Positions 40,415 through 58,400 of a stretch of 64,000 nt of DNA are shown one piece after another (position 1 is the stretch's first letter; each line of letters starts with the position of its first letter). The stretch spans positions 1-64,000 of the forward strand of contig JAJZUC010000005.1 of NCBI GenBank assembly GCA_021847245.1, given 5' to 3'. The translations under genes and the position numbers were made by a program. Below the pieces are notes generated by a model. It was not told the DNA's origin and made no database searches. It was given only the letters and a program-made list of their open reading frames with translations. This DNA is from Deltaproteobacteria bacterium. Its GTDB lineage: Bacteria; Desulfobacterota; Desulfuromonadia; Geobacterales; Geobacteraceae.

Positions 40415-42430
40415 ATGCCGTGGATCCAGACCTACACCCCGGTCGGAGGTAGTCTCGGGCTTTCGGCCCTGGTCGCCGCCGTCCCCCTCGTCGTCATCTT
40501 CATCTGTCTTGCCGTTCTCCGGATGAAGGCCCACAAGGCGGGCCTCCTCGCCGTCGGTTCGGCCGTCGCCCTTGCCGTCGGGGTCTGGGGGATGCCGGCG
40601 AAACTGGCCGGGCTTGCCACCCTTCAGGGGGCGGGCTTCGGCCTCTTCCCGGTCTTCTATATCGTCATTACGACCCTCTTTCTCTACAACATCACGGTCA
40701 AGGGGGGGCAGTTCGAGGTCATCCGCGCCTCCCTCGCCGGCGTTACCGGCGACCGGCGCCTCCAGGCGCTGCTGATCGCCTTCTGCTTCGGTGCCTTCAT
40801 CGAGGGGGCCGCCGGCTTCGGGACCCCGGTGGCCATCGCCGGCGCCACCCTGGTGGGGCTGGGATTCCGGCCGCTGTACGCCGCCGGCGTCTGCCTGGTG
40901 GCCAACACCGCGCCGGTCGCCTTCGGCGCCATCGGCATCCCGGTGGTGGCGCTGGCCGGGGTCATGGGGTACGGCGATGACGGGATGATGAAACTCTCCA
41001 CCATGGTCGGGCGCCAGCTCCCCTTCATCTCGGTCTTCATCCCGTTCTACGTCATCATGATCATGGTGGGCTGGAAAAAGACCATCGAGGTTCTCCCCGC
41101 CATCATCACCTGCGGGGTCACCTTCGCCGTCACCCAGTGGGCCACCGCCAGCTACCTCGGTCCCTACCTACCCGACGTCACCGCGTCGCTTCTCTCCATT
41201 GTGGCCCTGGTGCTCCTGCTGCGTGTCTGGCACCCGAAGACGATCTGGACCTTCGACCACGAGCCGGCATTCGCCGGCAGGGAAGAGCACCGTTACACCG
41301 CCGGGGAGGTTGCCCGCGCCTGGGCCCCCTACCTGGCGCTCACCGTCATGGTGCTCCTCTGGGGAATCCCCTCCATCAAGACCGCGCTTGACAGGAGCGC
41401 CGTGGAGTTCCCGGTGGCCGGGCTCCACAACGCCATCGTCAAGAAGGTCTCCAAGCCCGAGGAAGGGATGCGGAAGGTTGCCACGGTGATCGAAGAGATC
41501 GACCGGCAGCTCGCTCTGCTGGCGCCGGCGGATCCGAAGCAGGCCCCCCTGGCGGCAAAGCTGCAGGAGCTGAAGGGGGCCGAGGCACAGCTGCTCGCCG
41601 TGGAAAAGTCGCTGGCCGACAACGGCGTGGTGCTGACCGCCGGGCGGATGAAGGCGTTCGATGCGGTGGCCGGGATGAAGGATGAACTGCAGAAGCTCGC
41701 CAAGGAAGCGTCGAAGGGCGCCGCCACTGCGGCGGGCGGACCCTCCGTCGGTGTCGCCCCGGCTCTGGCCGCCGTCACGACGGCCCCGATCATCGCCAAG
41801 GACCGGTTCAAGCCCCTCGACAAGGCCCTGGCCGACCAGCTTCCGGCCAAGGTGGCCGCCAAGTACAAGTTCAACTTCATGTCCGCCGCCGGCACCGCCA
41901 TCCTCATCGCCGCCTTCATCTCCGCCCTCATCTGCGGCGTCGGCATCGGCGACACCTTCAGGATCCTCGGCAAGACCCTCTACGACATGCGCTACCCGGC
42001 CCTCACCGTCGCCTCGGTCCTGGGGCTCGCCTACGTCATGAACAGCTCCGGCATGACCAACTGCCTCGGCCTCGCCTTCACCAAGACCGGCCACATCTTC
42101 CCGTTCCTTTCCCCGCTCCTCGGCTGGCTGGGGGTCTTTCTCACCGGCTCCGACACCTCGTCCAACGTCCTCTTCGGCGGCCTCCAGAAGGCGACCGCCG
42201 AGCAGCTCGGCATCAACCCGATCCTGACCGGCGCCGCCAATACGAGCGGCGGGGTCATGGGGAAGATGATCTCGCCCCAGTCGCTGGCCGTCGCCACCGC
42301 CGCCACCGGGATGGTGGGGGAGGAGGGGAACCTCTTCCGCTTCACCCTGAAGCATTCACTCTTCCTGACGGTGGTGGTCGGGATCATCGTCTACCTCCAG
42401 GCCTACGTGGTGCCGTGGATGATTCCGTAG
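40415..42430 (+). CDS. lctP: L-lactate permease (LctP family) with a central insertion
   Basis: MPWIQTYTPVGGSLGLSALVAAVPLVVI, FGAFIEGAAGFGTPVAIAGATLVGLGF, GSDTSSNVLFGGLQ. Confidence 0.94.
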   Translation: MPWIQTYTPVGGSLGLSALVAAVPLVVIFICLAVLRMKAHKAGLLAVGSAVALAVGVWGMPAKLAGLATLQGAGFGLFPVFYIVITTLFLYNITVKGGQFEVIRASLAGVTGDRRLQALLIAFCFGAFIEGAAGFGTPVAIAGATLVGLGFRPLYAAGVCLVANTAPVAFGAIGIPVVALAGVMGYGDDGMMKLSTMVGRQLPFISVFIPFYVIMIMVGWKKTIEVLPAIITCGVTFAVTQWATASYLGPYLPDVTASLLSIVALVLLLRVWHPKTIWTFDHEPAFAGREEHRYTAGEVARAWAPYLALTVMVLLWGIPSIKTALDRSAVEFPVAGLHNAIVKKVSKPEEGMRKVATVIEEIDRQLALLAPADPKQAPLAAKLQELKGAEAQLLAVEKSLADNGVVLTAGRMKAFDAVAGMKDELQKLAKEASKGAATAAGGPSVGVAPALAAVTTAPIIAKDRFKPLDKALADQLPAKVAAKYKFNFMSAAGTAILIAAFISALICGVGIGDTFRILGKTLYDMRYPALTVASVLGLAYVMNSSGMTNCLGLAFTKTGHIFPFLSPLLGWLGVFLTGSDTSSNVLFGGLQKATAEQLGINPILTGAANTSGGVMGKMISPQSLAVATAATGMVGEEGNLFRFTLKHSLFLTVVVGIIVYLQAYVVPWMIP

Positions 42431-42463
42431 CGGGCAGGGCTACCCGCGGGATCGCCTTCGGGG

Positions 42464-42521
42464 GTAGGGGCGACCCTGTGTGGCCGCCCTGAGAATGGGC
42501 AACCACATGGGCTGCCCCTAC
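42464..42521. repeat. Dispersed-type inverted repeat
   Basis: GTAGGGGCGACCCTGTGTGGCCGCCC ... GGGCAACCACATGGGCTGCCCCTAC. Confidence 0.75.
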
Positions 42522-42533
42522 AGGAACACAATA

Positions 42534-43907
42534 ATGAACGAGAACCTTATCAAGAAACTGGCCGCCATTGTCGGTCCCGAGAACACCCTTAGCGACCGGG
42601 AGAGCTTGGCCTGTTACGGCTACGACTCCACACCCGAACACGAAAGCCGCCCCGGCGCCGTGGTCCTTCCGGGCTCGGAGGAGGAGATCTGCCGGATCAT
42701 GGCCCTCTGCCATGACGCCGGTGTCCCGGTCACCCCCCGGGGGTCGGGGACCAACCTCTCCGGCGGCTCCCTGGGTCGCCCCGAGGGGGTTGTCGTCCAG
42801 ACGAGCCGGCTCAACGGCATCGTCGAGATCGACGAGGAGAACCTCACCGCCACCGTCCAGCCGGGGGTCATCACCAGCACCCTCCACAAGGCGGTGGAGG
42901 CCCGGGGGCTCTTCTACCCCCCGGATCCCGGGAGCATGAACATCTCCACCATCGGCGGCAACGTGGCCGAGAACGCCGGGGGGCTGCGGGGGCTGAAGTA
43001 CGGCGTCACCGCCGACTACGTCATGGGGCTGCGAACCGCGCTTCCCGACGGAAGCCTCCTCAGAAGCGGCGGCAAGGCGGTGAAGGATGTGGCCGGCTAC
43101 AACCTGAACCAGCTCCTCGTCTCCTCCGAGGGGACCCTGGGGCTCTTCACCGAGGTCACCGTCAAACTGATCCCAAAACCACAGGCCAGAAAGACCATGC
43201 TCGTCCACTTCCCCCGGCTGGAGGACGCCGCCCTGGCGGTCTCCCGCATCATCGCCGCCCGGGTCATCCCGGCTACCCTGGAGTTCATGGACCGGGTGAC
43301 GATCCGCTGCATCGAGGAGTACGCCAAGGTGGGGCTTCCCCTCGATGTGGACGCCGTGCTCCTGATCGAGGTGGACGGCCACCCGGCCCAGGTTGGGGAG
43401 GAGGCGGCCGCCGTCCGGGCGGTCTGCGAGAGGCACCGCTGCTCTTTCTTCCAGACCGCCGCCACCGCCGACGAGGCCCTGAAGCTCGCCACCGCCCGCC
43501 GCGTCGCCCTCTCGTCCCTGGCGCGGATGAAGCCGACCACCATCCTGGAGGACGCCACCGTCCCCCGCAGCTCCATCGCCCCCATGGTGAAGCTGATCCA
43601 GGAGACCGCCAAGAAATACGACCTCACCATCGGCACCTTCGGCCACGCCGGCGACGGCAACCTCCACCCCACCTGCCTCACCGACGAGCGGGACGCCGAT
43701 GAGATCGCCCGGGCCCACCGGGCCTTCGCCGAGATCTTCGACGCCGCCATCGCCATGGGGGGGACCATCACCGGCGAGCACGGCGTCGGCCTCGCCAAGA
43801 AGAAGTACCTCCTGCGCCTGGTGGGAGAGCCGGGGCTGCGGGTGATGCGGGGGATCAAGGAGGCGTTTGATCCGAAGGGGATCCTGAACCCGGGCAAGGT
43901 GTTCTGA
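42534..43907 (+). CDS. FAD-linked oxidase (GlcD/D-lactate dehydrogenase-like)
   Basis: VTPRGSGTNLSGGSLG; PPDPGSMNISTIGGNVAENAGG; GTFGHAGDGNLHPT; GEHGVGLAKK. Confidence 0.93.
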   Translation: MNENLIKKLAAIVGPENTLSDRESLACYGYDSTPEHESRPGAVVLPGSEEEICRIMALCHDAGVPVTPRGSGTNLSGGSLGRPEGVVVQTSRLNGIVEIDEENLTATVQPGVITSTLHKAVEARGLFYPPDPGSMNISTIGGNVAENAGGLRGLKYGVTADYVMGLRTALPDGSLLRSGGKAVKDVAGYNLNQLLVSSEGTLGLFTEVTVKLIPKPQARKTMLVHFPRLEDAALAVSRIIAARVIPATLEFMDRVTIRCIEEYAKVGLPLDVDAVLLIEVDGHPAQVGEEAAAVRAVCERHRCSFFQTAATADEALKLATARRVALSSLARMKPTTILEDATVPRSSIAPMVKLIQETAKKYDLTIGTFGHAGDGNLHPTCLTDERDADEIARAHRAFAEIFDAAIAMGGTITGEHGVGLAKKKYLLRLVGEPGLRVMRGIKEAFDPKGILNPGKVF

Positions 43908-43928
43908 TGGACGGGAGACGGGAAAGCC

Positions 43929-44000
43929 GTGAGATGTGAGAAGTGAGATGTTACGTCTAACGTCTCACGTCTCACGTCTCACGTCTGTCTCACGTCTAAC
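43929..44000. repeat. Inverted heptamer array (GTGAGAN)3 ... (GTCTCAC)n
   Basis: GTGAGAT GTGAGAA GTGAGAT ... GTCTAAC GTCTCAC GTCTCAC GTCTCAC GTCT GTCTCAC GTCTAAC. Confidence 0.88.
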
Positions 44001-44020
44001 TTCTTTTCATTGAGGCAAAC

Positions 44021-45265
44021 ATGGAATACGTGAAGCTGATCAACTGCATGCGCTGCGGCATGTGCCTCCCGCACTGCCCGACCTACAGGGAGACCTTCCT
44101 GGAGACCGCCTCTCCCCGGGGGCGGGTCGCGCTTATGCGCAAGATCGCGGAGGGGGAGCTGGAAGCGAGCGAGCGGCTCCTCGAATACCTCTCCCTCTGC
44201 CTCGACTGCCAGGCGTGCGCCACGGCGTGCCCCTGCGGCGTGAACGCCGGCGAGATGGTGGCGGAGTTCAAGTGCGAGCGGCACGAAGGAAAGGGGCTCT
44301 CTTTCATGGAGGAGCTGGTGCTGCGAAAGCTTCTGCCGCACCCCGACCGGCTGGAGGCGGCGGTGGCGCCGCTGCGGGCCTACCAGCGGAGCGGCCTGCA
44401 GAAGCTCGTCCGCTCCCTCGGCGTTCTGAAGATGTTCCCCGCACCCCTCGGGCGGATGGAGGGACTGTTCCCTGCGCTTCCGCCACAGCCGCTGCGCCGG
44501 ACCATCGCCGAGGTCACCCCGGCGGTGGGGAAGGAGCGGGGGAGGGTCGGCTTCTTCCTCGGCTGCGTCATGAGCCTCGTCTTCTCCGGGGCGAGCCACG
44601 CCACGGTCCGGCTCCTCTCGGCCCTCGGCTACGCGGTGGTGACGCCGAAGGCCCAGAAATGCTGCGGCGCCCCCAACATGCTGGCCGGCGACCGTGAAGG
44701 GCTCCTGGAGGCGGCCCGCTTCAACGTTGACCTCTTCGCGGGACACGATCTCGACTTCATCGTCACCGACTGCGGCGGCTGCGGCGCCGAACTTAAGAAG
44801 TACGGCCACCACCTGGCGGGGGACGAACGGGCCGCCTCCTTCGGCGAGCGGGTCCGCGACATCTCCCAGATCCTTGCCCTCCATGCCGACGAGCTGCGGG
44901 AGAGGCTCAATCCGCTGTCGCTCAAGGTCACCTACCACGACCCGTGCCACATCGCCCACTGCCAGGGGATACGCCAGGAGCCGCGGCGGCTTCTGAAGCT
45001 CGTTCCCGGCCTTGACTGCCGCGAGATGGCCGAGGCCGACGCCTGCTGCGGCAGCGCGGGCACCTACAACATCGAGAAGCCCGAAATGTCCGACCGGGTC
45101 CTGCGCCGCAAGGTCGCCAACATCAAGGCGACCGGCGCCGAGGTCCTCGTCACCTCCAACCCGGGGTGCCTGCTCCAGCTCAAAAAGGCCCTCGCCGAGG
45201 AGATCCCGCCGGTCCGGGTCATGCACCTCACCGAACTGCTCCATCTAAGCCTCGCCCCCTCTTGA
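44021..45265 (+). CDS. GlcF-like Fe-S oxidoreductase (two CCG domains)
   Basis: CMRCGMCLPHCPTY; CLDCQACATACPCG; HDPCHIAHCQG; ADACCGSAGTYNIE. Confidence 0.92.
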   Translation: MEYVKLINCMRCGMCLPHCPTYRETFLETASPRGRVALMRKIAEGELEASERLLEYLSLCLDCQACATACPCGVNAGEMVAEFKCERHEGKGLSFMEELVLRKLLPHPDRLEAAVAPLRAYQRSGLQKLVRSLGVLKMFPAPLGRMEGLFPALPPQPLRRTIAEVTPAVGKERGRVGFFLGCVMSLVFSGASHATVRLLSALGYAVVTPKAQKCCGAPNMLAGDREGLLEAARFNVDLFAGHDLDFIVTDCGGCGAELKKYGHHLAGDERAASFGERVRDISQILALHADELRERLNPLSLKVTYHDPCHIAHCQGIRQEPRRLLKLVPGLDCREMAEADACCGSAGTYNIEKPEMSDRVLRRKVANIKATGAEVLVTSNPGCLLQLKKALAEEIPPVRVMHLTELLHLSLAPS

Positions 45266-45380
45266 TCCGGACGGGGCGACTCAGCTCCCGCCCAGTTGCC
45301 GGGATAATCTCTGTTGCCTTCCCCGGGCTCATGGTGTATTCATAATCGCTGCATGACCATTTTCTCATCCCGGGAACGCA

Positions 45381-46106
45381 ATGAATTTCAAGCCGATCAA
45401 GCCGAAGAAGATCTCTACCCAGATTGCCGAGCAGATCCGCTCCTCCATCCTCGCCGGCGAGTTCGCCCCCGGTCAGAAGCTCCCCCCCGAACGGGAGCTG
45501 GCGGAGATGTTCGGTGTTTCCCGCCCGTCGGTGCGCGAGGCGCTCAACCTCCTTTCCGCCGCCGGGTTCGTGGAGTCGTACCAGGGGGGAGGCACCGTCG
45601 TCAAATCCCTCGTGGAGTCGGCCTCGGGACCGACCCTGTCGGAGTTGATCAAGGGGGAGAGCGAGCGGGCCCTGGACGTCATCGAGGTCCGCAAGTGCAT
45701 GGAGGCCTGGACCGCCTACTACGCCGCCCAGCGGGCGCTTCCCGAGGATCTCCGGAAACTGGAGGCGATCGTCGCGGGGATGGAGGAGAACCTCCGTGGC
45801 ATGAGCTCCTCCGAGGACCTGGACGCCAATTTCCACATCGTCATCGCCCGGGCGACCCACAACATCGTCTGGCTCCACCTGATGCAGACCATCTTCGACG
45901 CCATGCAGGAATTCCAGCAGGGGGTCTGGCGGGCGGTCTACCTCACCGAGGAGGACCACCGCATCCTCTACGAGCACCACAAGGCGATCTTCGAAGCGGT
46001 CCGCGACCGCTCCCCCGAACGGGCCCGGGATGCGATGCTCACCCACCTCACCTTCGCCGAGAAGCGAAGCAGCGCCTACGTAAGCCTCGCCCGACAGTCG
46101 CGGTAG
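45381..46106 (+). CDS. GntR/FadR-family regulator (LldR-like)
   Basis: QIRSSILAGEFAPGQKLPPERELAEMFGVSRPSVREALNLLSAAGFVE; FCD-like C-terminus; adjacent to lactate genes. Confidence 0.9.
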   Translation: MNFKPIKPKKISTQIAEQIRSSILAGEFAPGQKLPPERELAEMFGVSRPSVREALNLLSAAGFVESYQGGGTVVKSLVESASGPTLSELIKGESERALDVIEVRKCMEAWTAYYAAQRALPEDLRKLEAIVAGMEENLRGMSSSEDLDANFHIVIARATHNIVWLHLMQTIFDAMQEFQQGVWRAVYLTEEDHRILYEHHKAIFEAVRDRSPERARDAMLTHLTFAEKRSSAYVSLARQSR

Positions 46107-46429: not shown

Positions 46430-46445
46430 TGGCACGGCGATTGCC
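46430..46445 (+). promoter_or_regulatory. Sigma-54 (-24/-12) promoter of the amyloid-like locus
   Basis: TGGCACGGCGATTGCC: GG-N10-GC spacing, near-perfect match to TGGCACGRNNNTTGCW, 74 nt upstream of ATG. Confidence 0.85.
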
Positions 46446-46518: not shown

Positions 46519-48042
46519 ATGAAAGCGAATCACAAACGAGTAGCCGTATCATTGGCCTTCGCCCTTGCTCTGGGAATTTCGGGGCAAGTGTCAGCCCAAC
46601 CGACCGACAGTCTGAACAACAACGATGTTCAACTGGCCGATGATAGGGGAACGAATGCGAACGATGGATCCGCTGCCGTTGGGTCTAATTCGCTGAACGA
46701 CAACACGCTCGGGATTAATTCGAACAACAACAACTCCAATCAGAACAACAAGGACATCGACGTCACGGCCACCAAGACCCAAGACTCCAACAACAACAAC
46801 TCCAACCAGAACAACAAGGACATCGATGTTACCAAGACAACCACGCTTACTGCCACCAAGACCGATGACTCCCACGACAACAACTCCAACCAGAATAACA
46901 AGGACATCGACGTCACTGCCACCAAGACCGATGACTCCTACAACAACAACTCCAATCAGAACAACAAGGACATCGACGTTACCAAGACAACCACGCTTAC
47001 TGCCACCAAGACCGATGACTCCCACGACAATAACTCCAATCAGAACAACAAGGACATTGACATCACTAAAACCAATACCATTACCACAACAAAAACCGAC
47101 ACCGACATAGACAAAGCGAAAGCGGGCGACGGTTCCATGGCGGCAAACGACGAATCGACCATCGAAAACAAGACCAAGGCCGAGGACCGCAGCGCTGCAG
47201 CTACCAACAATTCAACGGCATCAGTAGATAACACGAACAACTCGGACCAGAACAACAACAAGAGCAAGACTTTCACCAATTCCTTCAACAAGGACGAAAG
47301 CGACAAGGCCAAGGCTGAAAAGAATGCTCTCAACAACAGCGATCACAACATAGTCACCAGTGACTCGCTCAACAACAATACCGTCAACAGCAACAACAAG
47401 TCACTCGATGTCGATATTAAAGACAGCAACCTGACCAAGAACGAGAGCGGCAATGCGGTGGTCGACAGCGAAAAAGTCAATATTGACTCCTTCAACGGGA
47501 ACGTGAAAGACGTCGATGAGGGAAGCGCGGTTGCTACCGGTGGCGGGAGCGCGTCCGTCGACAGCAGCATCAACGCCACTGGCGCGAGAAGCATTGCCGC
47601 CGGCGGCGACGTGGATGCAACGTACGACTCGAATAATAACAACAATAACGCAGAAGGTAAAGGCAGTGCAGCGGCCAACAACGGTTCAACTGCCACGGTG
47701 GATAACAGCAAGAGCAAGGCCGGGAATTACGGCGCCGCAGCCAACAACGGCGGAACCGCCAACGTGAACAACAGCGTGAACGACTCCTACAACACCGACG
47801 ACAGCACCAACATAACCGTCGGCGACGTGGGTGTGGCGATTGCCAACAGCAGCCTGCAGGGCCAGGTCAGCGGCAACATGACCGCCCTTCCTCCGGGTTC
47901 CGAAATGCTTACCGGCGACAACAGAATCGACCACAACGCTGTAAACAACGCTGCCGGCATCACCGCATTGTCCCAGAACAGCGGTCCCAACTCCCTGATC
48001 CAACAGTCCGTCAACGTGCAGTCCAACATGAACCTGCCGTAG
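46519..48042 (+). CDS. Secreted Asn-rich repeat protein, candidate functional-amyloid subunit
   Basis: Perfect AAAGGAGG SD; signal peptide MKANHKRVAVSLAFALALGISGQVSAQ; five NNNSNQNNKDID(V/I)T units; C-terminus GITALSQNSGPNSLIQQSVNVQSNMNLP. Confidence 0.75.
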   Translation: MKANHKRVAVSLAFALALGISGQVSAQPTDSLNNNDVQLADDRGTNANDGSAAVGSNSLNDNTLGINSNNNNSNQNNKDIDVTATKTQDSNNNNSNQNNKDIDVTKTTTLTATKTDDSHDNNSNQNNKDIDVTATKTDDSYNNNSNQNNKDIDVTKTTTLTATKTDDSHDNNSNQNNKDIDITKTNTITTTKTDTDIDKAKAGDGSMAANDESTIENKTKAEDRSAAATNNSTASVDNTNNSDQNNNKSKTFTNSFNKDESDKAKAEKNALNNSDHNIVTSDSLNNNTVNSNNKSLDVDIKDSNLTKNESGNAVVDSEKVNIDSFNGNVKDVDEGSAVATGGGSASVDSSINATGARSIAAGGDVDATYDSNNNNNNAEGKGSAAANNGSTATVDNSKSKAGNYGAAANNGGTANVNNSVNDSYNTDDSTNITVGDVGVAIANSSLQGQVSGNMTALPPGSEMLTGDNRIDHNAVNNAAGITALSQNSGPNSLIQQSVNVQSNMNLP

Positions 48043-48060
48043 AAGAGGAGCGTGCCAGGC

Positions 48061-48093
48061 GGGTGGCGGCAAGAGTGCCGCCACCCCGTTTTT
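48061..48093 (+). terminator. Intercistronic terminator/attenuator hairpin
   Basis: GGGTGGCGGCA-AGAG-TGCCGCCACCC followed by CGTTTTT between the repeat protein and the next gene. Confidence 0.75.
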
Positions 48094-48147
48094 CGACCGG
48101 GTGACAAGGTTCCAGTCCCAGTTGGCCACGATCAAGAGGTGTGGGAT

Positions 48148-48549
48148 ATGAGACAGATAACGAAACTCCTACTTGCGGCACTGGTGCTATTCGGGAGCGC
48201 GCTTTCGGTGCGGGAGTCTCTGGCGGAGCCGGTCGATCCTACGATGGCTGGACAGAATGATGTTGTGGATGTCTCGCAATTTGGTTCAGCGGCGTCCGGT
48301 AAAGATCTGATGGCGCAGAACGGACGCCTGGACATGCAGGTCGACCAGCTCAATTTTCAGACGAGCACCAACAATCAGAGCAACTCCTACGTGGGGGGGA
48401 ATTACCTCCTCAACCCCGGTGCAACCGGCATCAACTCGGTGAGCGATTCCGCGTTTGCCAATGCCAGCGGGATTGCCACCGTGATCCAGAACTCGGGCAA
48501 CCAGGTTCTTATTCAGAATTCAATGATTCTCAACCTGTTATTGCGGTAG
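48148..48549 (+). CDS. Small secreted Q/N-rich protein, candidate minor amyloid subunit or nucleator
   Basis: MRQITKLLLAALVLFGSALSVRESLAEP signal; C-terminus GIATVIQNSGNQVLIQNSMILNLLLR resembles that of the preceding protein. Confidence 0.7.
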   Translation: MRQITKLLLAALVLFGSALSVRESLAEPVDPTMAGQNDVVDVSQFGSAASGKDLMAQNGRLDMQVDQLNFQTSTNNQSNSYVGGNYLLNPGATGINSVSDSAFANASGIATVIQNSGNQVLIQNSMILNLLLR

Positions 48550-48676: not shown

Positions 48677-49375
48677 ATGAAATCGCCCCTCACGATACGA
48701 CTAATCCTTGGCACCTTCGCCATTCTCGCCGCGTCATCTTCGGCTGCCGCCGCAACCATGACGGTTCGCGGCGGGAGTGGCGATTTCACTGTCAAGGTGA
48801 TGAGCATGCAGGAGCGACGCTTTCGCACCACCATTCGGCAGCAGAACGATTTCAGTTGCGGCTCGGCGGCACTCGCCACCCTGCTCACCTATCATTACGA
48901 GGACAAGGTCAGCGAGCAGGAGGTGTTCGACGCGATGTTCGAGGCCGGCGATCAGGAGAAGATCCGCCGGGAAGGCTTTTCGATGCTCGATATGAAAAAG
49001 TACCTGGAGGCCAATGGTTACACGGCGAACGGCTACAAGATCGACCTGCCAAAGCTGGCGAAGGTCGGGGTGCCGGCCATCGCCCTGATCAACCATAACG
49101 GCTACAAGCATTTTGTGGTGGTCAAGGGTGTAACGGCGAAGGAGGTTCTTCTGGGAGATCCATCGCTGGGGACGAGGACCATTCAGCGGCCCGACTTCGA
49201 GAAGATGTGGAACGGGTTAGTCTTTATCGTGCTTAACAAGAAGAACGTGGCGCAGAATCACTTCAACAATGAGAAGGAATGGCGTGTGAGGGAGAAAGCG
49301 CCGCTTGGCATGGCGCTTAACCCGAGCGAGCTGGCGAATATGACGCTGTTTCTGCCGGGGCGTAACGACTTTTAG
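48677..49375 (+). CDS. C39-family peptidase, FapD-like
   Basis: RTTIRQQNDFSCGSAALATLLTYHYEDKVSEQEVF...GVPAIALINHNGYKHFVVVKGVTAKEVLLGDPSLGTRTI: Cys/His/Asp pattern of C39 peptidases; signal peptide. Confidence 0.85.
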   Translation: MKSPLTIRLILGTFAILAASSSAAAATMTVRGGSGDFTVKVMSMQERRFRTTIRQQNDFSCGSAALATLLTYHYEDKVSEQEVFDAMFEAGDQEKIRREGFSMLDMKKYLEANGYTANGYKIDLPKLAKVGVPAIALINHNGYKHFVVVKGVTAKEVLLGDPSLGTRTIQRPDFEKMWNGLVFIVLNKKNVAQNHFNNEKEWRVREKAPLGMALNPSELANMTLFLPGRNDF

Positions 49376-49387
49376 CGGGGGCAGGCC

Positions 49388-49903
49388 ATGCGTACACCTT
49401 GCATAAAACGGATTCTGGCAGGTGCCACGTCTCTGGTGATCGGAATGGCGGCTTATCCCGCCCTGGCGGACTCCCATGACGTCGACGCGGGAGCTGCAGT
49501 CAGTAACCAGGAGCTGGATACCATGCGCGGCGGCTATGACCTGGGAAGTGGGGTGCTGATACCATTCGGCATCGACATAAGGAGAGACGTATTCATCGAC
49601 GGCGTGCGTGTGGCGACGAGCACCCTGAATATCCCCATCGGGGGGGCGCCGGGTCAGCAATCGTCAGGCCAGGGGAACGCCACCAGTCCGCTCGTGATTC
49701 AGTCGGGCACCGGCAACAGTGTGTCGCCGGACGTGCTCAAGAACCTCGGGCAAGGGCTTTTCACGTTTATTCAGAACAGCCTCGACAACAAGGTGATCCA
49801 GAATGTGACGCAGATCAACGCCACCCTTAACAGCCTGAGCGTCTACAGGCAGATGAACCTCTCATTTTCGCTGAACCAGCAGCTTATCCATTCAATCCGG
49901 TAA
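49388..49903 (+). CDS. Secreted FapE-like accessory protein (tentative)
   Basis: Signal peptide MRTPCIKRILAGATSLVIGMAAYPALA; SNQELDTMRGGYDLGSG; QN-rich C-terminal half. Confidence 0.6.
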   Translation: MRTPCIKRILAGATSLVIGMAAYPALADSHDVDAGAAVSNQELDTMRGGYDLGSGVLIPFGIDIRRDVFIDGVRVATSTLNIPIGGAPGQQSSGQGNATSPLVIQSGTGNSVSPDVLKNLGQGLFTFIQNSLDNKVIQNVTQINATLNSLSVYRQMNLSFSLNQQLIHSIR

Positions 49904-49920: not shown

Positions 49921-51099
49921 TCAGAAACTGACCGGGACGCGCAGCGTCAACTGGACATCCGGCGCCGATTCCGTAACACCCACCCCCAGTGACAGGTTGA
50001 GATTGGTATTTTCGAAGAGCTTGTAGGAATAGCCGAACAACAGGGTCCCCACATAGGTATTCTGGATATCGGCAAAAAACTGGTTGTTTATCCTGGTCTT
50101 GCCGATAATGCTGTGGTCGTAGCCGATACTGAACGACGCCTTTTCGTTTATTGCCAGTCCCATCCCGAAATTGAATTCAACCACATCTCCCGGATCGATG
50201 GTTCCGAAATCCCGTCCGTTAACCACGCCAACGTTGCGCTCAATATTCCACGTGTAGCTGACGCCGCCGAAGAACACCGCCGGGTCTGAAGGGAAAATGG
50301 CGGTCAATCCTCCCTGGACCGCCCAGAAGCCTGAACCGCGGGGGAGCTCCGTCTGCAGGTTGGTGGCGGGATCTATCGGCACCTCGAAACCGTTCTTGCC
50401 GGTGGGGGCCTTGGCCCGCAGGCTTGCCGTGAAGAAAGGACCGGTGCTGGGCTGGTTCAGCTGGTAGCGCAAACCGAACTCCACGTCACCGATGCCGTTG
50501 CCTTCCGCATCGAAGACACTCTCTCTGTCGTTTTGTTGTTGAGTGAAGGGTCGGGTAGTTGATGTCTCTGACTGGTAGACGTAGGGGACTCTCGCTTCGA
50601 CTTCGAACCGGTTCGTGAGCCCATAGCGGGCGGCCAGGGCGGTAACGTAGGTGTGGCGGGTGACGCTCCGAACGTCGATGAGGCCGATGGTTACCGCTGG
50701 AATGTAGGTATAGCCGATGAGGGCGATCCGTCTGGTTGAAGAGAGCGAATACTGAAAGGACGGTTCCAGCACCAAGGTTCCCCGTGGGGTCAGGATCCCC
50801 GGCTGCTCGAAGATGGGAGCGATTTCAGGGGGTTTTGCTTCGGGGGACGGTTCCGGCGGACGCCCGACCGGCTGCGTTGCCGCCGATTTCTCTTTCGGTG
50901 TGACTTGCTGCTGTGCTGGCTGGCTTTCTTTCTGTCCGCTTTTTTTCGGGGTTGGTTTTCCGGTTTGGGGTTCCTTGGCCGGCGTGGTGGTTTCAGAAGC
51001 AGGTGGGGCGGGTGTGGGATCACCGTGGGCGGTTGTGATTGTCAGTAGAGTGGTAGCCACACAGAGGCAGGTCAAGACTCTGAAACGGTTTGCAGCCAT
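49921..51099 (-). CDS. FapF-like outer-membrane beta-barrel protein
   Basis: Signal peptide; Pro/Lys-rich linker; EQPGILTPRGTLVLEPSFQYSLSSTRRIALIGYTYIPAVTIGLIDVRSV; amphipathic strands ending ...VQLTLRVPVSF with terminal F. Confidence 0.78.
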   Translation of the reverse strand: MAANRFRVLTCLCVATTLLTITTAHGDPTPAPPASETTTPAKEPQTGKPTPKKSGQKESQPAQQQVTPKEKSAATQPVGRPPEPSPEAKPPEIAPIFEQPGILTPRGTLVLEPSFQYSLSSTRRIALIGYTYIPAVTIGLIDVRSVTRHTYVTALAARYGLTNRFEVEARVPYVYQSETSTTRPFTQQQNDRESVFDAEGNGIGDVEFGLRYQLNQPSTGPFFTASLRAKAPTGKNGFEVPIDPATNLQTELPRGSGFWAVQGGLTAIFPSDPAVFFGGVSYTWNIERNVGVVNGRDFGTIDPGDVVEFNFGMGLAINEKASFSIGYDHSIIGKTRINNQFFADIQNTYVGTLLFGYSYKLFENTNLNLSLGVGVTESAPDVQLTLRVPVSF

Positions 51100-51275
51100 A
51101 AAATTTATCCCCCTGAGGTTTGATTGAATTACACGGAAAATAATTAGCATCGATTAAAAGCATCGATGGCACCGAATAAACACCAGCCGGTACCTTTTGT
51201 CAATCTCTATAACAGTGTTTTTGTTTTTGGAAGGTCTTGCCTTGAATTCGACCGGTGCGGGAATCTTTAGCCAAA

Positions 51276-52616
51276 TTACGCACTTATCCCGAACTTGTTC
51301 ATCAACCGGTAGAGGGTTACCCGCGATACGCCAAGTTGCCGCGCAGCTTCCGATACGTTGTTCATGGTGCGTTGCAGGCTGGCCCTGATCGCCTCGCATT
51401 CGGCCTTCTCCCGTGCGCTGTCCAAAGACAAGACCCTTCCTGCCGTATCGGGATTGTCCAGGCCGAGATCCGCTGCGGTGATCAGCCGGCCCTCACACAT
51501 TACCGAGGCCCGCTTCACGCGGTTGATCAATTCACGCACGTTCCCCGGCCACGGGTGACTATACATGGCGCGTAACGCCCTTTTGCTGAAACCCCTTGCG
51601 GCGAGCTTTTCCTTGCGTGCAAACTCTTTCAGGCAGGTATGGGCGAGCAATTCTATGTCCCGTTCCCGTTCCCGCAAAGGAGGCATTTTGAGACGCAGCA
51701 CGTTGAGCCGATAATAGAGGTCTTCGCGAAAGCGCCCATCCTTCACGGCCTGTTCGATGTCTACGTTGGTGGCGGCTATCACCCGGGCATCAACGGGGAT
51801 GACCCGGTTCGATCCGATACGTTCCACGGTTTTTTCCTGCAAGAAGCGCAGCAGGTTGACCTGAAGCTCCAGTGGGAGCTCGCCGATTTCATCGAGGAAA
51901 ACGGTCCCCCGCGCCGCTGCCTCGATCCGGCCGATCTTGCGCTGAAAGGCGCCGGTAAAGGCCCCTTTTTCGTGGCCGAACAGCTCGCTCTGGATCAGCG
52001 GAGTCGGCAAGGCGCCACAATTGACCGCAACAAACGGCCATTGCCGACGCGGGGAGTGAGAATGTATGGCCTGCGCCACCAGCTCCTTTCCGGTGCCGCT
52101 CTCGCCGGTAATAAGGATCGGAGAGTCCGAGCCCTGCATCTTGCACATGTTCTGGTAGAGCTCCTGCATGCTGCTGCTTGTCCCCACCATCCGATGACCG
52201 CCGGCATTCCTGTTCGGTGAGTCGAGCCGGCTCTTCAGTGCGGCTTTGCCGTAGGCATGTCCGAGGGTAACCACCAGGCGCATCGGATCCACCGGGAGGG
52301 TATGGAAGTCGTGGAAATTTTCCATGACAAACCTGCCGGCTTCCGGCGTCTGCAGACCGGCGGCCGGGACGAGTGCTACCCACTCCATGGTGTCTCTGGA
52401 CAGGATGACGTCCTCGATCGTTTCAAGAGTGCTTTCATGGAAATCGGCACAGTGGACGAGACCTACGTGCAGGTTCCCTTTTCCGATCGCGGCCTTGGCG
52501 TCGACACTGTTTGTCGCCATCCGCAGGTCCCAGCCTTGCGACTCGAGTACCCCGGCAGGAAGATGAGGCCGTTCATCCAGGCTCAGTATGAGTATTTCCC
52601 GCCTTGTCACCATCAA
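51276..52616 (-). CDS. Sigma-54-dependent transcriptional activator with degenerate receiver-like N-terminus
   Basis: [35 protein letters not shown] (GAFTGA), [14 protein letters not shown]-terminal Fis [28 protein letters not shown]. Confidence 0.95.
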
Positions 52617-52638: not shown

Positions 52639-54039
52639 CTACAGGGTGATCAATTTCAGCGCCAGTTTGAGAATTATCAGCACGTCCCCGATGGTTATCC
52701 TCCCGTCGGGTAGGGGGGTGCCGTTTGTCATGGGAGAAACGTCTCCGTACAGGATATCGTCGGCGGTCGGCATGGCGAGACCCGTGCTGATTTTCAGTGC
52801 CCTGATGACGTCCAACATGTCCACTTTGTCATCTTTCGTGATATCGCCGACTTTCCCCTGTGCAACGTGAATGATGTTGCGCGGCACGCTCGCCGAGTTG
52901 CCCGCCTCGTCGGACGCCGTGACGGTCACGTGGTAGAGCTTGTCCTCGGTGAAGGTCACATCCTGCTCGAAGCCCTGCCCCGACGTGAGATCCTTGAACA
53001 CGTTGAGGACGGTCCCATCACGGGCAACGGTTACGGAGACTTTGGTCAGGGCGTCGGATACCGTACCTGTGATCCTGATGGTTGGCTGGGCGCTCCTTAT
53101 GTCCTGCAGGGGGTAGGTCAGCTCCAGGGACGGAGCCTGGTCGTCATAGGTGATGGTGCGTTTCTGGGAGGTGCCGGCATTTCCGACCGAGTCGGTGGCG
53201 CTTATCTCGATGGTATTGATGCCGTTGGCAAGGTTTGCGGTTACAGTGAAGTTGTTGCCGCTCGGAGATGAAAGCTGGGGCGCGCCGCCGTTTACCCGCA
53301 TCTCCACCGTGGCGGTTTCGTCAACCGTTCCCGTGACATCCACGGATGACTTTGATGTCACGCTGTTGTCCGCCGGGGATGTGATCACAAGCGTAGGGGG
53401 GGTCAGGTCGAGGGTGACGGTTCTCCGGTTGCTGCTCCAGTTGCCGGCTCGGTCCGTTGCGACGGTCGTTATGGCATTTGCACCGGCATTCAGCTGCAGC
53501 GGATAACTGAACGAGCCATTGGTATTGACCCCGACACCGGCGCCGTTGATGGTGAGGCTCTTGACGCCGTTTTCGTCGCTTACCGATCCCGCGATGTTAA
53601 GGGTCGGATTTCCGGTGACTGCGCCGTCGGTGAGGGTGGATAGTAATAATTCCGGCGCCTTGGTGTCCACCGTCCATTGACTGGTGGAGGCGTCTGCATC
53701 GGCTTGCCAGACGCCGGAACTGTCCCTGCCGACCACGTAGATGGTGTGGGGACCGTCGGGAATATTTGCAAGGGGTACCGCCTCGCTCACCGGGGTAATG
53801 GCCGATTTGGTTCCCGGTTTCCAGTAATCGAGCCAGTATTGGTAGGCGACGATATCGTAGCCGCTTACCGTAATGGTGGCGCTGGTCAGACGGGTAGGGC
53901 TCTGGGGAGCGCCGGTGATTTCGGCCATGGGCGCCCCTTGGGCCTCCAGCGCGTAAAGGAGACAGAAGCCGGTGACAGAAAGTGCGGACCGCAGTAATCG
54001 TAATAGCTTGCTCATTGGTCTTGACATTTTGCCCTCCAT
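52639..54039 (-). CDS. Secreted Ig-like repeat protein with C-terminal dockerin-like domain
   Basis: Signal peptide; Big-type repeats; C-terminus GDITKDDKVDMLDVIRALKISTGL...GDVSPMTNGTPLPDGRITIGDVLIILKLALKLITL. Confidence 0.8.
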   Translation of the reverse strand: MEGKMSRPMSKLLRLLRSALSVTGFCLLYALEAQGAPMAEITGAPQSPTRLTSATITVSGYDIVAYQYWLDYWKPGTKSAITPVSEAVPLANIPDGPHTIYVVGRDSSGVWQADADASTSQWTVDTKAPELLLSTLTDGAVTGNPTLNIAGSVSDENGVKSLTINGAGVGVNTNGSFSYPLQLNAGANAITTVATDRAGNWSSNRRTVTLDLTPPTLVITSPADNSVTSKSSVDVTGTVDETATVEMRVNGGAPQLSSPSGNNFTVTANLANGINTIEISATDSVGNAGTSQKRTITYDDQAPSLELTYPLQDIRSAQPTIRITGTVSDALTKVSVTVARDGTVLNVFKDLTSGQGFEQDVTFTEDKLYHVTVTASDEAGNSASVPRNIIHVAQGKVGDITKDDKVDMLDVIRALKISTGLAMPTADDILYGDVSPMTNGTPLPDGRITIGDVLIILKLALKLITL

Positions 54040-54095
54040 GGCAGAAATGCCTCCGATCGGGGCCCTCGGGAAGGGCCGTGATTTCGGAAGTCCAT

Positions 54096-55382
54096 CTATT
54101 CCGTCACCGTTGCGTTTATGAATTTGCCGTTTGGGCCGTCGTTAGACGGGGTCGATCCGCCGTTATTCGGATCGTACAGGGCCGCATCGAACGAGACGAT
54201 CTTGAAATCGGAGATGGGGGGTGGTGTCCCCGCCGGGACGTCGCACTTGATCGTCAACAGCTCGCCAATCCCGAAACTCCCCGACACCATTCCCACCGTT
54301 ACCCGCCCCCTGGCCGTATCCGATGGGGGGATGTAATTTCCCATCGGGTAAATCCCCTGCGGAAGCGTCGCGGAGGTGGTCACCACCCCGCTCAGGGTTT
54401 GGTACGCCTCTCCGGAAAAGTCTGCCTTCAGCGTTACCCCTTGCGGCAATTCCACTGTCACCACAAACCCGCCGAAGGAGAAACCGGGGGGTGGTTCTCC
54501 GGTGGTTGTCACCTTGACGGTCCTGGTTGTTCCCCCTGCGTTGGCCAGGTTGGTCAGTCTGATATCTTTCACAACGGTCGGATTCCTGTCCGATGCCAGG
54601 AACTCCTTCAAGGCGGTCTGAAAGGCCGCGGCGTTCTCGGCGGACATGGCGCCGTCGTCGGCCAGATCGGTGGCCAGGGTGGTCAATACGTCGGACAGCT
54701 TACCGTTCTTGGCCAGCTGGGAGATGGCTGCCAGCGCCAGGGTGTAATCTTTCTGCGCCTGGTCAGTACCCGATTTCAGGAATTCGTCGCCAGTGAGTGC
54801 CACAGGTTGCGTCGCAATGATATCCACCTTGAAGAGGTCCGAAATCAGGGCATTTGCGCTGTTGACCTTGTCCGCGGTAAGGGTGCCGCTTCCCTTGGTG
54901 GCAATTTGCGCCGCAAGCTCCGTCAGGGGGGTGACTGCCACCTTCATTTTATCGGTGGGATTGGCAATGAGCGCCCGTAGCGGTTCCTCCGTGGTCACAG
55001 TCTTGTCCACAGCGGTGGCCTCATCGGTGTACGTGCCGGTGGCCTCTATCTCCACCACACCGCTGTAGGAACCGTTGAAGGTTTTGGTGGAGCTGATGTG
55101 CGTAGAGTAATTCCCGAAGGAGTTGATCCTGATCGGCTCCTTCTCCGGTATCGAAATTTCTTGTCTGGTCCTGTCGGGATTCACGGCATAGACCTTGACG
55201 TACCCGTCCTTGAAGAGCCCCTTCGAGACAACGCCGCTTATTTTGGTATCGGTATCCGTCGGATTGGTCTGCTCGGTTGTCGATCCGCCGCCGCTGAACC
55301 CGCCGAACCCGCAACCGCATATGTTTGTTGTCACGAGGATAAGTATCAGCCAGAAGAATGTCTTTGCTTTCATAACGGGCAC
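54096..55382 (-). CDS. Lipoprotein with a C-terminal cohesin-like domain (tentative)
   Basis: Lipobox-like TNICGCGF; FGGFVVTVELPQGVTLKADF...GRVTVGMVSGSFGIGELLTIKCDVPAGTPPPISDFKIVSFDAALYDPNNGG. Confidence 0.65.
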   Translation of the reverse strand: MPVMKAKTFFWLILILVTTNICGCGFGGFSGGGSTTEQTNPTDTDTKISGVVSKGLFKDGYVKVYAVNPDRTRQEISIPEKEPIRINSFGNYSTHISSTKTFNGSYSGVVEIEATGTYTDEATAVDKTVTTEEPLRALIANPTDKMKVAVTPLTELAAQIATKGSGTLTADKVNSANALISDLFKVDIIATQPVALTGDEFLKSGTDQAQKDYTLALAAISQLAKNGKLSDVLTTLATDLADDGAMSAENAAAFQTALKEFLASDRNPTVVKDIRLTNLANAGGTTRTVKVTTTGEPPPGFSFGGFVVTVELPQGVTLKADFSGEAYQTLSGVVTTSATLPQGIYPMGNYIPPSDTARGRVTVGMVSGSFGIGELLTIKCDVPAGTPPPISDFKIVSFDAALYDPNNGGSTPSNDGPNGKFINATVTE

Positions 55383-55423
55383 CTCATGATGTCCAACCCC
55401 TTCAAATCGCTGTTACTGCATGG

Positions 55424-58400
55424 TTACTGTTGAATGATTTTCAACCACTTTTTCAGGATTACCAGTGTGTCACTTATGTCGATCTTGCCGTCGGGAACGG
55501 ATATGCCGTTAACGAACGGCGAGACGTCGCCGACGATCAGGTCACCCTCCGTCGGCTGTCTGAGACCCACGGCAATCCTCAATGCAATGAGAACGTCGAG
55601 GACGGAGAGTTGGCCATCGGCGTTGAGATCGCCGCTTGGCGGGTCTGCCCAAGTGATGTTCCGTGGGACGCTGCTCTCGTTCCCCGCTTCGTCCGTTGCT
55701 TTGACGATTACGTGATAGATGAGGCCTTTTGTCGGGAAAATCAGCTTCTGTTCGAAAGTCTGCCCGGAACCGTCGTTTACCAGCGGAGGCGGGTCGAGTG
55801 GTTCGCCGTTGCGGGTGATGCTGACGGTGACATTGGTCAGGGCATCGGCCACTCTGCCCTTGATCGTCAGGTACCCGTCCGGGATCCTTATGTCCTTCGG
55901 GGGGTAGGTGATCTCCAGGGACGGCTTCTGGTCGTCAAAGATGACGACCTGGCTGTACGAGCCCTTGCTTCCGGCCAGGTCGGTGACGGTGAGCACGATG
56001 TTGTTGCACCCCTCAACCAGCGGGACCGAAGCGGTGAAATGTGTATCGGTCATTTCCGCAAGCTGGGTGGAACGGAGCACCGACTCCGTCTGGCAGTCGT
56101 AAACCGAGACCTCGATCTGCCCGATGGCGCTGGCAGGTTTACTCATGGTGCCGGTAACATCCACTGGAGACTTTGCAATCTTGCTGTCGGCCGCCGGGGA
56201 GATATCGGAAAGCGTGGTGCCGTTCGGATCGTAGGTGATGTTTCTGGTAAAGCGGGGGGTGCTCTCATTCCCCGCGCGATCGGTGGCTATGATGGTGATC
56301 CGGTTCGCCCCGAGGCTCAGTTTCGGGATGTTGTGCCTGTAATCGCCGTTTGCCTCGATCCCGTTCCCCGGCGTCAACTCGGCCGAGTAGTACATATTGT
56401 TGCCGCTGTCAGAGGCTGAAATGACCAGAGTCCGGATGCCGTTTAGGTCGCCGGCGTTTCCGCTGACGTTGAGATCTTCCTTGTTGGTGAACGAGTCGGG
56501 TTGGAGCATTGTTACGTTCAGGGTCGGCGGCGTCGTGTCTATGACAATGGCCAGAGTGCCGCTTGCCGACCAGTTCCCCGCCGTGTCGCGTTCCTGCACG
56601 TAGAGGGTGTGGGTTCCCTCGCTCAGTGACGCGGCCGGTGTAAAGGTCGTGGCGGCGGTCTCTGTCGCCCCGGTGGCGAGATCGGCGTCGTCAAGCCTGA
56701 AGCGGAAGGTCCCGTTGCCACTTTCGTCCGAGGTCCAGCTCCAGGTCGGTCTGGTATTGTTGGTCGGCGATGGTCCCGCGACTGCGGGAGCGGCCGGCGC
56801 GGTGGTGTCCACGACAATGGTGAAACTGCCGGTTGCCGACCAGTTCCCCGCCGCGTCCCGTTCCTGGACGTAGAGGGTGTGGGTTGCCTCGCTCAGCACA
56901 TCGGTCGGGGTGAAAGATGTTGCCGTGGTTTCCGTCGCCCCGGTGGAGAGATCGGCGTCGTCGAGCTTGTAGCGGAAAGTTCCGTTCCCGCCATTGCCCC
57001 CCGAGCTCCAGCTCCACGTCGGGGTGGTGCTGTTGGTCGGCGTCGTGCCTGAGACCGTCGTTGCGCCTGGGGCCGTGGTATCCACGACTATGGTGAGGGT
57101 GCCGCTTGCGGACCAGTTCGCCGCCGCGTCCCGCTCCTGCACGTAGAGCGTATGGCTTCCATCGTTCAGCGCGTTGGCCGGAGTGAAGGTCGTGGCGGTG
57201 GTTTCCATTGCACCGGTCGAAAGATCGGCATTGTCGAGCCTGTAACGGAAATACCCGTTGCCCCCGTTTCCTCCCGAGGTCCAGCTCCAGGCAGGCGTTG
57301 CCGTGTTGCTCGGCGTCGTGCCGCTCACTGCCGGCGCGGCCGGCGCACTCCTGTCTATCACCAGCGGTCCGTCACTGGAGGCAAAGACCGCTGTCTTCCC
57401 GTCTTCTATCCTGGCATAGACGTAATAGGCTCCGTCCGGCAGGGTTGACGTATCCCAGGAGTAACTGGTCTTCCCCAAGACGATGCCGGAAACTATCTGC
57501 GTTACGTTCTGGCTGCCGTCGTAAACAAATTTTTCATTACCGTAATAAAGGGTGATCTGGGCGGCCGGGCTGTCCGGGTCGGAGGCGTTCCAGGTTATGG
57601 TGTAGCGTGTGGCGTTGGTCGCCGGTTCGGCTGCGCCCGGAGCAGTCAGTGTGATGCTCGGCGGCTGGTTGACCCCCTGGTTCTTGACCGTGAACGAGCT
57701 TGTCGCCATCCACGTGCTGTAATAGCCGTGCTCGTCCTTGGCCTTGGCTCTCCAGTAGTATCGGGTGTTGTCGGCAAGAGGCGTGTTGTCGGCAACCTTC
57801 CAGCTCGTTCCCGGGACTTCTGCACCGGCCACGAATGTCTTGAGGGTGCTGTCGCTGTAAATCTCGAAGTTGCAGGAGATGGCATCGTGGTCCACATCGG
57901 TGGTGCTGACGGTAAGAGTAGGCGTAGTGGAAGTCACCTCGCCGTTGTCGGAGGGAGCGACAATGGTCGGCACGTTAGGGGCCTCATTCTGCAGGTTGAC
58001 GAAAAACTGGGCGCTCATCCACGGACCGTCGGCCTGGCCGTCGTTTGCCTTCACTCGCCAGTACCAGACGGAGTTGTCGGTGAGAGGTTTGGCAACCGCC
58101 CAGCTCGTTGTCCCCGCCCCCTCGGCGATAATGGGTGAAGTCTGCTTGTTGGGACTGTCGAAGGTGTTGACGGTGTCGATCTCGAAAGCGTAGCTCAGGG
58201 TGTCCCTGTCCGCGTCGGTGGCGTTGTTGACCTTCAGGGTCGGGGTTAGCGTAACGACTTCATTCAAGTTGTACGTCCCGTTTGGCGGTGTATTGACCGT
58301 CGGAGCGGTCGGGGCGTCGTTGGCGGTGTTCGTGAAGAAGGCGGCGCTCACCCAGTTGCTGGTTGCCCCGTGCTGGTCAACAGCCCTGCTTCTCCAGTAG

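Follow-up and report, generated by a model that had tools for sequence, protein, structure and literature searches.

A probable divergent Fap-like operon in Geobacteraceae, with a repeat shared by the C-termini of its secreted subunits

Introduction

Fap is the amyloid system behind a biofilm fibre of Pseudomonas. Cryo-EM has placed the repeats of FapC in the cross-beta core of the Fap amyloid fibre, and the published consensus of FapB repeat 3 has a Gly, a Gln at +6 and a Gly at +9 (PMC12392863). FapE is processed at its N-terminus in Pseudomonas; its C-terminus, as noted by Rouse et al., is N/Q-rich and akin to the repeats of FapB and FapC (PMC5557850). In 2018, fapD and fapF were reported as co-located in five more phyla, the subunits being unnamed in the part of that text cited here (PMC6173800). 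Published Fap surveys rely on a FapB/C repeat profile. We found no report of Fap in Geobacter in the literature searched, and supplementary tables of the Fap surveys may already list some of the genera found here. The Geobacteraceae are known for their electroactive biofilms.

Here we analyse a window of 64,000 nucleotides from a Geobacteraceae genome (assembly GCA_021847245.1, contig JAJZUC010000005.1). It probably carries a divergent Fap-like functional-amyloid operon, in which the C-terminus shared by the secreted subunits is a Fap-type repeat unit. We call these subunits X, Y and E.

Results

The first gene of the operon, X (46519–48042, forward strand), encodes a secreted, Asn-rich subunit of 507 aa that has polar repeats (NNSNQNNKDIDVT...) and, at its C-terminus, a single Fap-type repeat (TGDNRIDHNAVNNAAGITALSQNSGPNSLIQQSVNVQSNMNLP, 47911–48039, forward). 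A sigma-54 (−24/−12) promoter element, TGGCACGGCGATTGC, lies at 46430–46444 on the same strand, 89 bp before the start codon, and is the sole exact match in the window. Next comes Y (48148–48549, forward), a small secreted subunit of 133 aa whose start is placed at ATG 48148 rather than at the longest-ORF start, 48052. It is FapB-like by size and by its C-terminal repeat (TGINSVSDSAFANASGIATVIQNSGNQVLIQNSMILNLLLR, 48424–48546, forward), and it occupies the fapC position. Y also contains a degenerate leader-like motif (GKDLMAQNGR, 48289–48327, forward), of which G59 and R60 are invariant in Geobacteraceae Y.

Downstream on the forward strand lie a gene for a FapD-like periplasmic C39 cysteine peptidase (48677–49375) and one for E (49388–49903), a secreted FapE-like protein of 171 aa. 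E has a double-glycine leader (SNQELDTMRGG, 49502–49534, forward), with FapD cleavage predicted after the GG, and a degenerate repeat (GLFTFIQNSLDNKVIQNVTQINATLN, 49754–49831, forward). Convergent with E, on the reverse strand, are the genes of a FapF-like outer-membrane beta-barrel (49921–51150) and of a sigma-54-dependent activator with a VpsR-type N-terminal domain (51276–52616), the latter probably co-transcribed with fapF.

Following these genes, the reverse strand of 52639–63802 encodes a lipoprotein that is flanked by a protein of 466 aa and one of 2792 aa with bacterial Ig-like repeats; the C-termini of both flanking proteins are dockerin-like. Several Geobacteraceae (L017, L020, L022, L039) have similar giant proteins next to their operon; the giant Ig-like repeat protein is a possible adhesin partner of the fibre. 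Upstream, positions 40415–46106 are occupied by an ordinary gene cluster for lactate utilisation (lactate permease, FAD oxidase, Fe-S/CCG subunit and GntR-type regulator) unrelated to the finding.

For the window peptidase, the best match is the NCBIfam model C39_FapD, with 173 bits against an equivalog cut-off of 330; FapD proteins of Pseudomonas-type genomes reach 371–441 bits with this model. Pfam C39 gives 91 bits. The protein has the signal peptide of a periplasmic C39 enzyme, and its catalytic residues Cys61, His145 and Asp161 are invariant in the alignment. The barrel matches NCBIfam FapF over positions 66–420 of 420 with 149 bits, the curated cut-off being 700. These sub-threshold scores count against reading the locus as a Fap-like operon. 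The FapD tree leaves many inner forks open and brings several long branches together; in it, the 12 canonical sequences are united in a single long-stemmed clade (100/100), to which none of the other 55 rows, that of the window among them, belongs. Because both proteins score below the equivalog cut-offs and each subunit has one repeat, we name the locus a Fap-like sister lineage and not a Fap member. Judged by its sequences, it is a Fap-like variant or sister lineage rather than Fap in the strict sense.

The sequence-only reading had held that X and Y end in a common motif while their bodies are dissimilar, and both points hold: the ORFs and C-termini are confirmed. Related segments of 18–40 aa (G-I-x4-QNS-G-x3-LIQ) are common to the C-terminal ends of X (GITALSQNSGPNSLIQQSVNVQSNMNLP), Y (GIATVIQNSGNQVLIQNSMILNLLLR) and E. 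In a direct BLASTP of X against Y, the single significant match is the C-terminal region, with 22/49 residues identical (45%, E = 7e-5); the remainder is unrelated or of low complexity. The similarity covers about 40–49 residues, longer than first noted. It starts with TGxNxIxxxAFxxASG, and its extended consensus is TGxNxIxxxAFxxASGIxxVIQNSGNxVLIQNSxIxNL. The QN-rich segment noticed earlier in E is indeed present and related, but in it L-D replaces S-G (QNSLDN), and about 23 further residues follow, which puts the motif near the end of E and not at its terminus.

To avoid circularity, profiles were built from one protein class and scored on the others; the Y profile comprised 39 Y C-termini and was free of X, E and canonical Fap sequences. 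Each protein was recovered by the profiles of another's relatives at 19–27 bits; in 3000 shuffles of each protein, the highest score was 12. The Y profile scored 25.5 bits on window X (best shuffle 7.7) and 18.9 on window E (7.9); window Y scored 25.4 bits with the X profile (10.7) and 26.6 with the E profile (7.5). In profile-profile comparison, Y matched X with a probability of 97.7% and a score of 52.5, and E with 97.0% and 42.7, the maxima of 150 column-shuffled controls being 16.8 and 16.6, respectively. An alignment of 19 diverse Y proteins has invariant columns.

Pfam and NCBIfam returned no credible family for X, Y or E, Pfam curlin repeats included (E ≤ 1). A PDB sequence search with Y, as profile and as single sequence, gave nothing relevant. 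As an exact back-translated DNA pattern, which is too strict, the motif had no match in its own genome. AlphaFold models of low confidence lend weak support: in Y (pLDDT 58) the motif is modelled as two short strands, and in E (pLDDT 60) it is a strand pair, with a helix that ends at RGG.

The operon X-Y-FapD(C39)-E, accompanied on the opposite strand by FapF and the sigma-54 regulator, is found again in Geobacteraceae, Nitrosomonas, Vibrionaceae, Marinobacter, Nitrospira and Alphaproteobacteria, and the same cluster is present in 8 more genomes of the family. In 58 related genomes, all matches of the Y profile are to Y and X of this locus, and the genomes that have them are precisely the nine in which a close fapD is present. 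When 85,462 species genomes were scanned with the FapD alignment, 46 loci emerged, distributed over Geobacteraceae (Geotalea, Geomonas, Oryzomonas and others), Desulfobulbaceae, Nitrosomonas, Burkholderiales, Vibrio, Photobacterium, Marinobacter, Halomonadaceae, Nitrospira and Alphaproteobacteria. Several of the compared loci come from metagenome-assembled genomes. Searching for the motif beside FapD/FapF-like genes, as the sequence-only reading had suggested, bore out the association: nearly all FapD-anchored loci of sufficient length encode X, Y and E, in which the motif is present as such or in divergent form; the X gene is doubled in some. A further sample of 296 Desulfobacterota genomes had no Y by the Y profile, so that the operon is distributed patchily in this phylum. 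A sigma-54 −24/−12 element stands 74–155 bp upstream of X at 8/36 loci, against an expectation of 0.17 calculated from the remainder of the loci, and relatives have an additional upstream gene for a PilZ/sigma-54 activator.

Several variations were observed among these loci. One Marinobacter-type genome (L139) has the X-Y-D-E block tandemly duplicated, with identical Y. In one gammaproteobacterial group (L030, L034, L036, L041, L043), E is a protein of about 400 aa whose long N-terminal extension contains a hydrophobic segment, and the GG leader is shifted to about residue 260–350 (not found in L034). Upstream of X, small secreted proteins with an LWDE motif are encoded at L020:9029-9451 (−), L022:5151-5501 (+) and L039:5485-5850 (+); the motif also occurs in the canonical FapA of L137 (FVILWDE). 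These proteins, absent from the window, are probable FapA relatives. Pseudomonas/Marinobacter-like genomes (L089:408-2298, L126, L077, L098) have a second FapD/FapF-type pair beside secreted DUF6160 proteins, which in mature form begin with ELVAMDESALAAATGQAGIDI, a sequence that resembles a C39 leader. One Geobacteraceae genome (L023) has a second, more distant C39/barrel cluster, with a different secreted protein of 149 aa (L023:8102-8551, −) that carries LLTDQLLDAITAG near its N-terminus.

For comparison with canonical Fap, operons were taken from ten genomes of one family with FapD above the NCBIfam cut-off (371–441 bits) and from a Halomonas-like genome that has two fap copies and whose FapD falls slightly short of this cut-off, 'canonical' being assigned by the FapD score together with gene content. 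There are three repeats in canonical FapB, two of them internal; the last (AFxGSRGVVQLNQSAGVGNRxANTLSIRV) forms the C-terminus, as in Y. On canonical sequences, the Y profile scores best on FapB repeats 2 and 3, weakly (7–10 bits each) and in the same register. The register of X and Y, with Q at +6 and G at +9, is also that of the published FapB repeat 3.

In the reverse test, a profile of 33 canonical FapB repeats was run against 3392 ORFs from non-canonical loci. At the top stood the X protein of L053, with four tandem copies (E = 2e-5). Among the 20 ORFs with E < 1, 17 were in the X/Y/E set, which makes up 125 of the 3392 ORFs and was assigned by simple patterns; two more, L053 X and a Y fragment of L142, belong to X/Y/E and were missed by these class patterns. 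The homology of FapB repeat 3 and the FapC repeats is accepted; their profiles score 26.1 against each other, and Y scores 26.0 against FapB repeat 2, above all 150 column shuffles. The shared motif is, by these profile comparisons, homologous to the FapB imperfect repeat.

Further results count against the Fap reading, as does the low confidence of the AlphaFold models of Y and E. Sequence by sequence, the likeness of Y to canonical FapB is about 10 bits (6.7 bits for window Y, E = 1.2). FapC repeats gave no significant match with the X or Y profiles. Window X and Y have one repeat each, compared with three in canonical FapB. As the E profile gave no signal on FapB repeats, the link of E to the FapB repeat runs via Y; a degenerate copy in E fits the N/Q-rich FapE C-terminus described by Rouse et al. 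(PMC5557850).

The gene downstream of fapD encodes a FapE homologue, with both the N-terminal motif and the C-terminal QN segment. N-termini of E and canonical FapE align as (D/N)QELxxxRG[G/K/R][Y/F]xxxGxxIxFGI. A double-glycine leader of the ELxxxRGG type, RGG or CGG, is present in 42/43 E proteins, where canonical FapE has RGK or RGR. In window E, this ELxxxxGG-type leader follows shortly downstream of the signal peptide (SNQELDTMRGGY); a classical C39 leader context is seen in the E lineage, for example in L051 (LSDPELEKLRGG). Because the double-glycine leader is conserved in E, FapE is the leading candidate for the predicted FapD substrate.

Y has a weaker version of the leader (SxxxLxxxRG[GRK]), which is faint in window Y and clear in L045, L062 and L056. 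Scored with the E-leader profile, 21/41 Y N-termini lie above the 95% level of scored shuffles (1.1 bits), the best at 17.0 bits against a shuffle maximum of 9.0. The canonical FapA of the Halomonas-like genome carries LEDGDLASIRGRF. We claim no leader for X, since the same profile gave no signal on X N-termini.

Discussion

The mechanism that we propose starts from homology, conservation, the operon, the promoter element and the leader, for which there is direct support. From the sequences we infer amyloid assembly, a division of labour between the subunits, and cleavage and its role. X, Y and E would reach the periplasm by Sec and then leave through the FapF-like pore. The shared segment would be one Fap-type imperfect repeat unit (strand-turn-strand, TVIQ-NSGN-QVLIQ), and, once outside the cell, every subunit would contribute a single cross-beta layer to a fibre of mixed composition. 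X may be the bulk subunit, its long Asn-rich body forming a polar fibre coat; Y may be a small nucleator-type subunit, and E an initiating or capping one. FapD would cut E, and possibly Y, after the N-terminal double-glycine leader, licensing secretion via FapF, and expression is predicted to be sigma-54 dependent via the neighbouring activator.

The shared C-terminus is most likely a fibre-forming or nucleating repeat, one copy per subunit. Of the three roles first guessed for it (export, protease recognition, nucleation), nucleation is the best supported, the motif being homologous to the FapB repeat in the profile tests and FapC repeats forming the fibre core (PMC12392863). The main rival takes the motif primarily for an export tag recognised by the FapF-like pore, with any fibre formation left to the Asn-rich body of X. 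It keeps some weight because the motif occurs once in each of the three presumed FapF substrates, at or near the C-terminus of otherwise divergent sequences. We consider it unlikely: the homologous FapB repeats come three per protein, two of them internal, the related FapC repeats build the fibre core (PMC12392863), and L053 X has four copies whereas a tag needs one.

QN-rich beta-arch motifs converge easily, and the per-sequence likeness to FapB is weak, as would be expected if a curli-like or independent QN amyloid motif had acquired Fap-like spacing by convergence and had then been recruited to a place beside fapD/fapF. This origin appears improbable to us, as X, Y and E have no credible Pfam match, curlin repeats included, at E ≤ 1, a canonical FapB profile untrained on X/Y ranks X/Y proteins top, and E is homologous to FapE at its N-terminus too.

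Nearly every operon with this FapD has the motif, which could suggest a FapD recognition site. The motif is devoid of any double-glycine and the proper C39 leader sits elsewhere, at the N-terminus of E, making such a role very improbable; the guess of protease recognition is unsupported at the C-terminus and finds its counterpart in the C39-type leader of E and, more weakly, of Y. Chance likeness of two low-complexity proteins that are both rich in N, Q and S is refuted by the profile and profile-profile controls, in which composition-keeping shuffles never come close, by the invariant columns of 19 diverse Y proteins and by a Y profile that matches this locus only in 58 relatives.

Returning to the Fap-like reading, we see about even odds that a broad sister lineage of Fap builds a hetero-amyloid from single-repeat subunits and keeps an ancestral double-glycine leader in FapE, with a relic in Y and FapA, which would identify FapE as the FapD substrate. 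If true, this answers a question that the Fap literature has left open. The conserved RGG leader of FapE-like proteins turns the question of the FapD substrate into a one-mutation test. Candidate subunits are now available for the fapD/fapF pairs in the additional phyla, and the predicted Fap-like amyloid extends to Geobacteraceae. Subunits with one repeat per chain would constitute a minimal model of Fap layer stacking.

Among known systems, the locus shares with the Fap of Pseudomonas (fapABCDEF) Sec-exported subunits with imperfect QN repeats, a periplasmic C39 peptidase FapD, a FapE-like protein with a conserved N-terminal motif, a FapF-like barrel and clustered genes. Pseudomonas FapB and FapC have about three imperfect repeats of 37–39 aa each, whereas most members of the window lineage have one divergent repeat. 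Gene order differs as well: the large Asn-rich subunit comes first and the small one second in the window, while canonical Fap has the small FapB first and the large FapC second. Contrary to Pseudomonas Fap, the window lineage has a true double-glycine leader in FapE; the window is without fapA, has fapF on the opposite strand beside a sigma-54 activator, and its FapD falls outside the canonical clade.

The FilB (C39) and FilC (barrel) models of the putative Fil pilus of Acinetobacter match the same two window proteins with 125 and 53 bits, less than the FapD and FapF models; likeness to Fil was judged on FilB and FilC alone. Substrates of PCAT/bacteriocin ABC transporters with C39 domains have the ELxxxxGG-type leader also seen in E, and PCAT/LahT peptidase domains are among the PDB matches of the FapD profile, but the window peptidase is a stand-alone periplasmic enzyme whose substrate would first be exported by Sec. 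With curli (CsgA/CsgB), the locus shares a QN-rich strand-turn-strand repeat and a small nucleator-like subunit; unlike curli, X, Y and E have no curlin repeat match (Pfam, E ≤ 1), and the secretion machinery is different.
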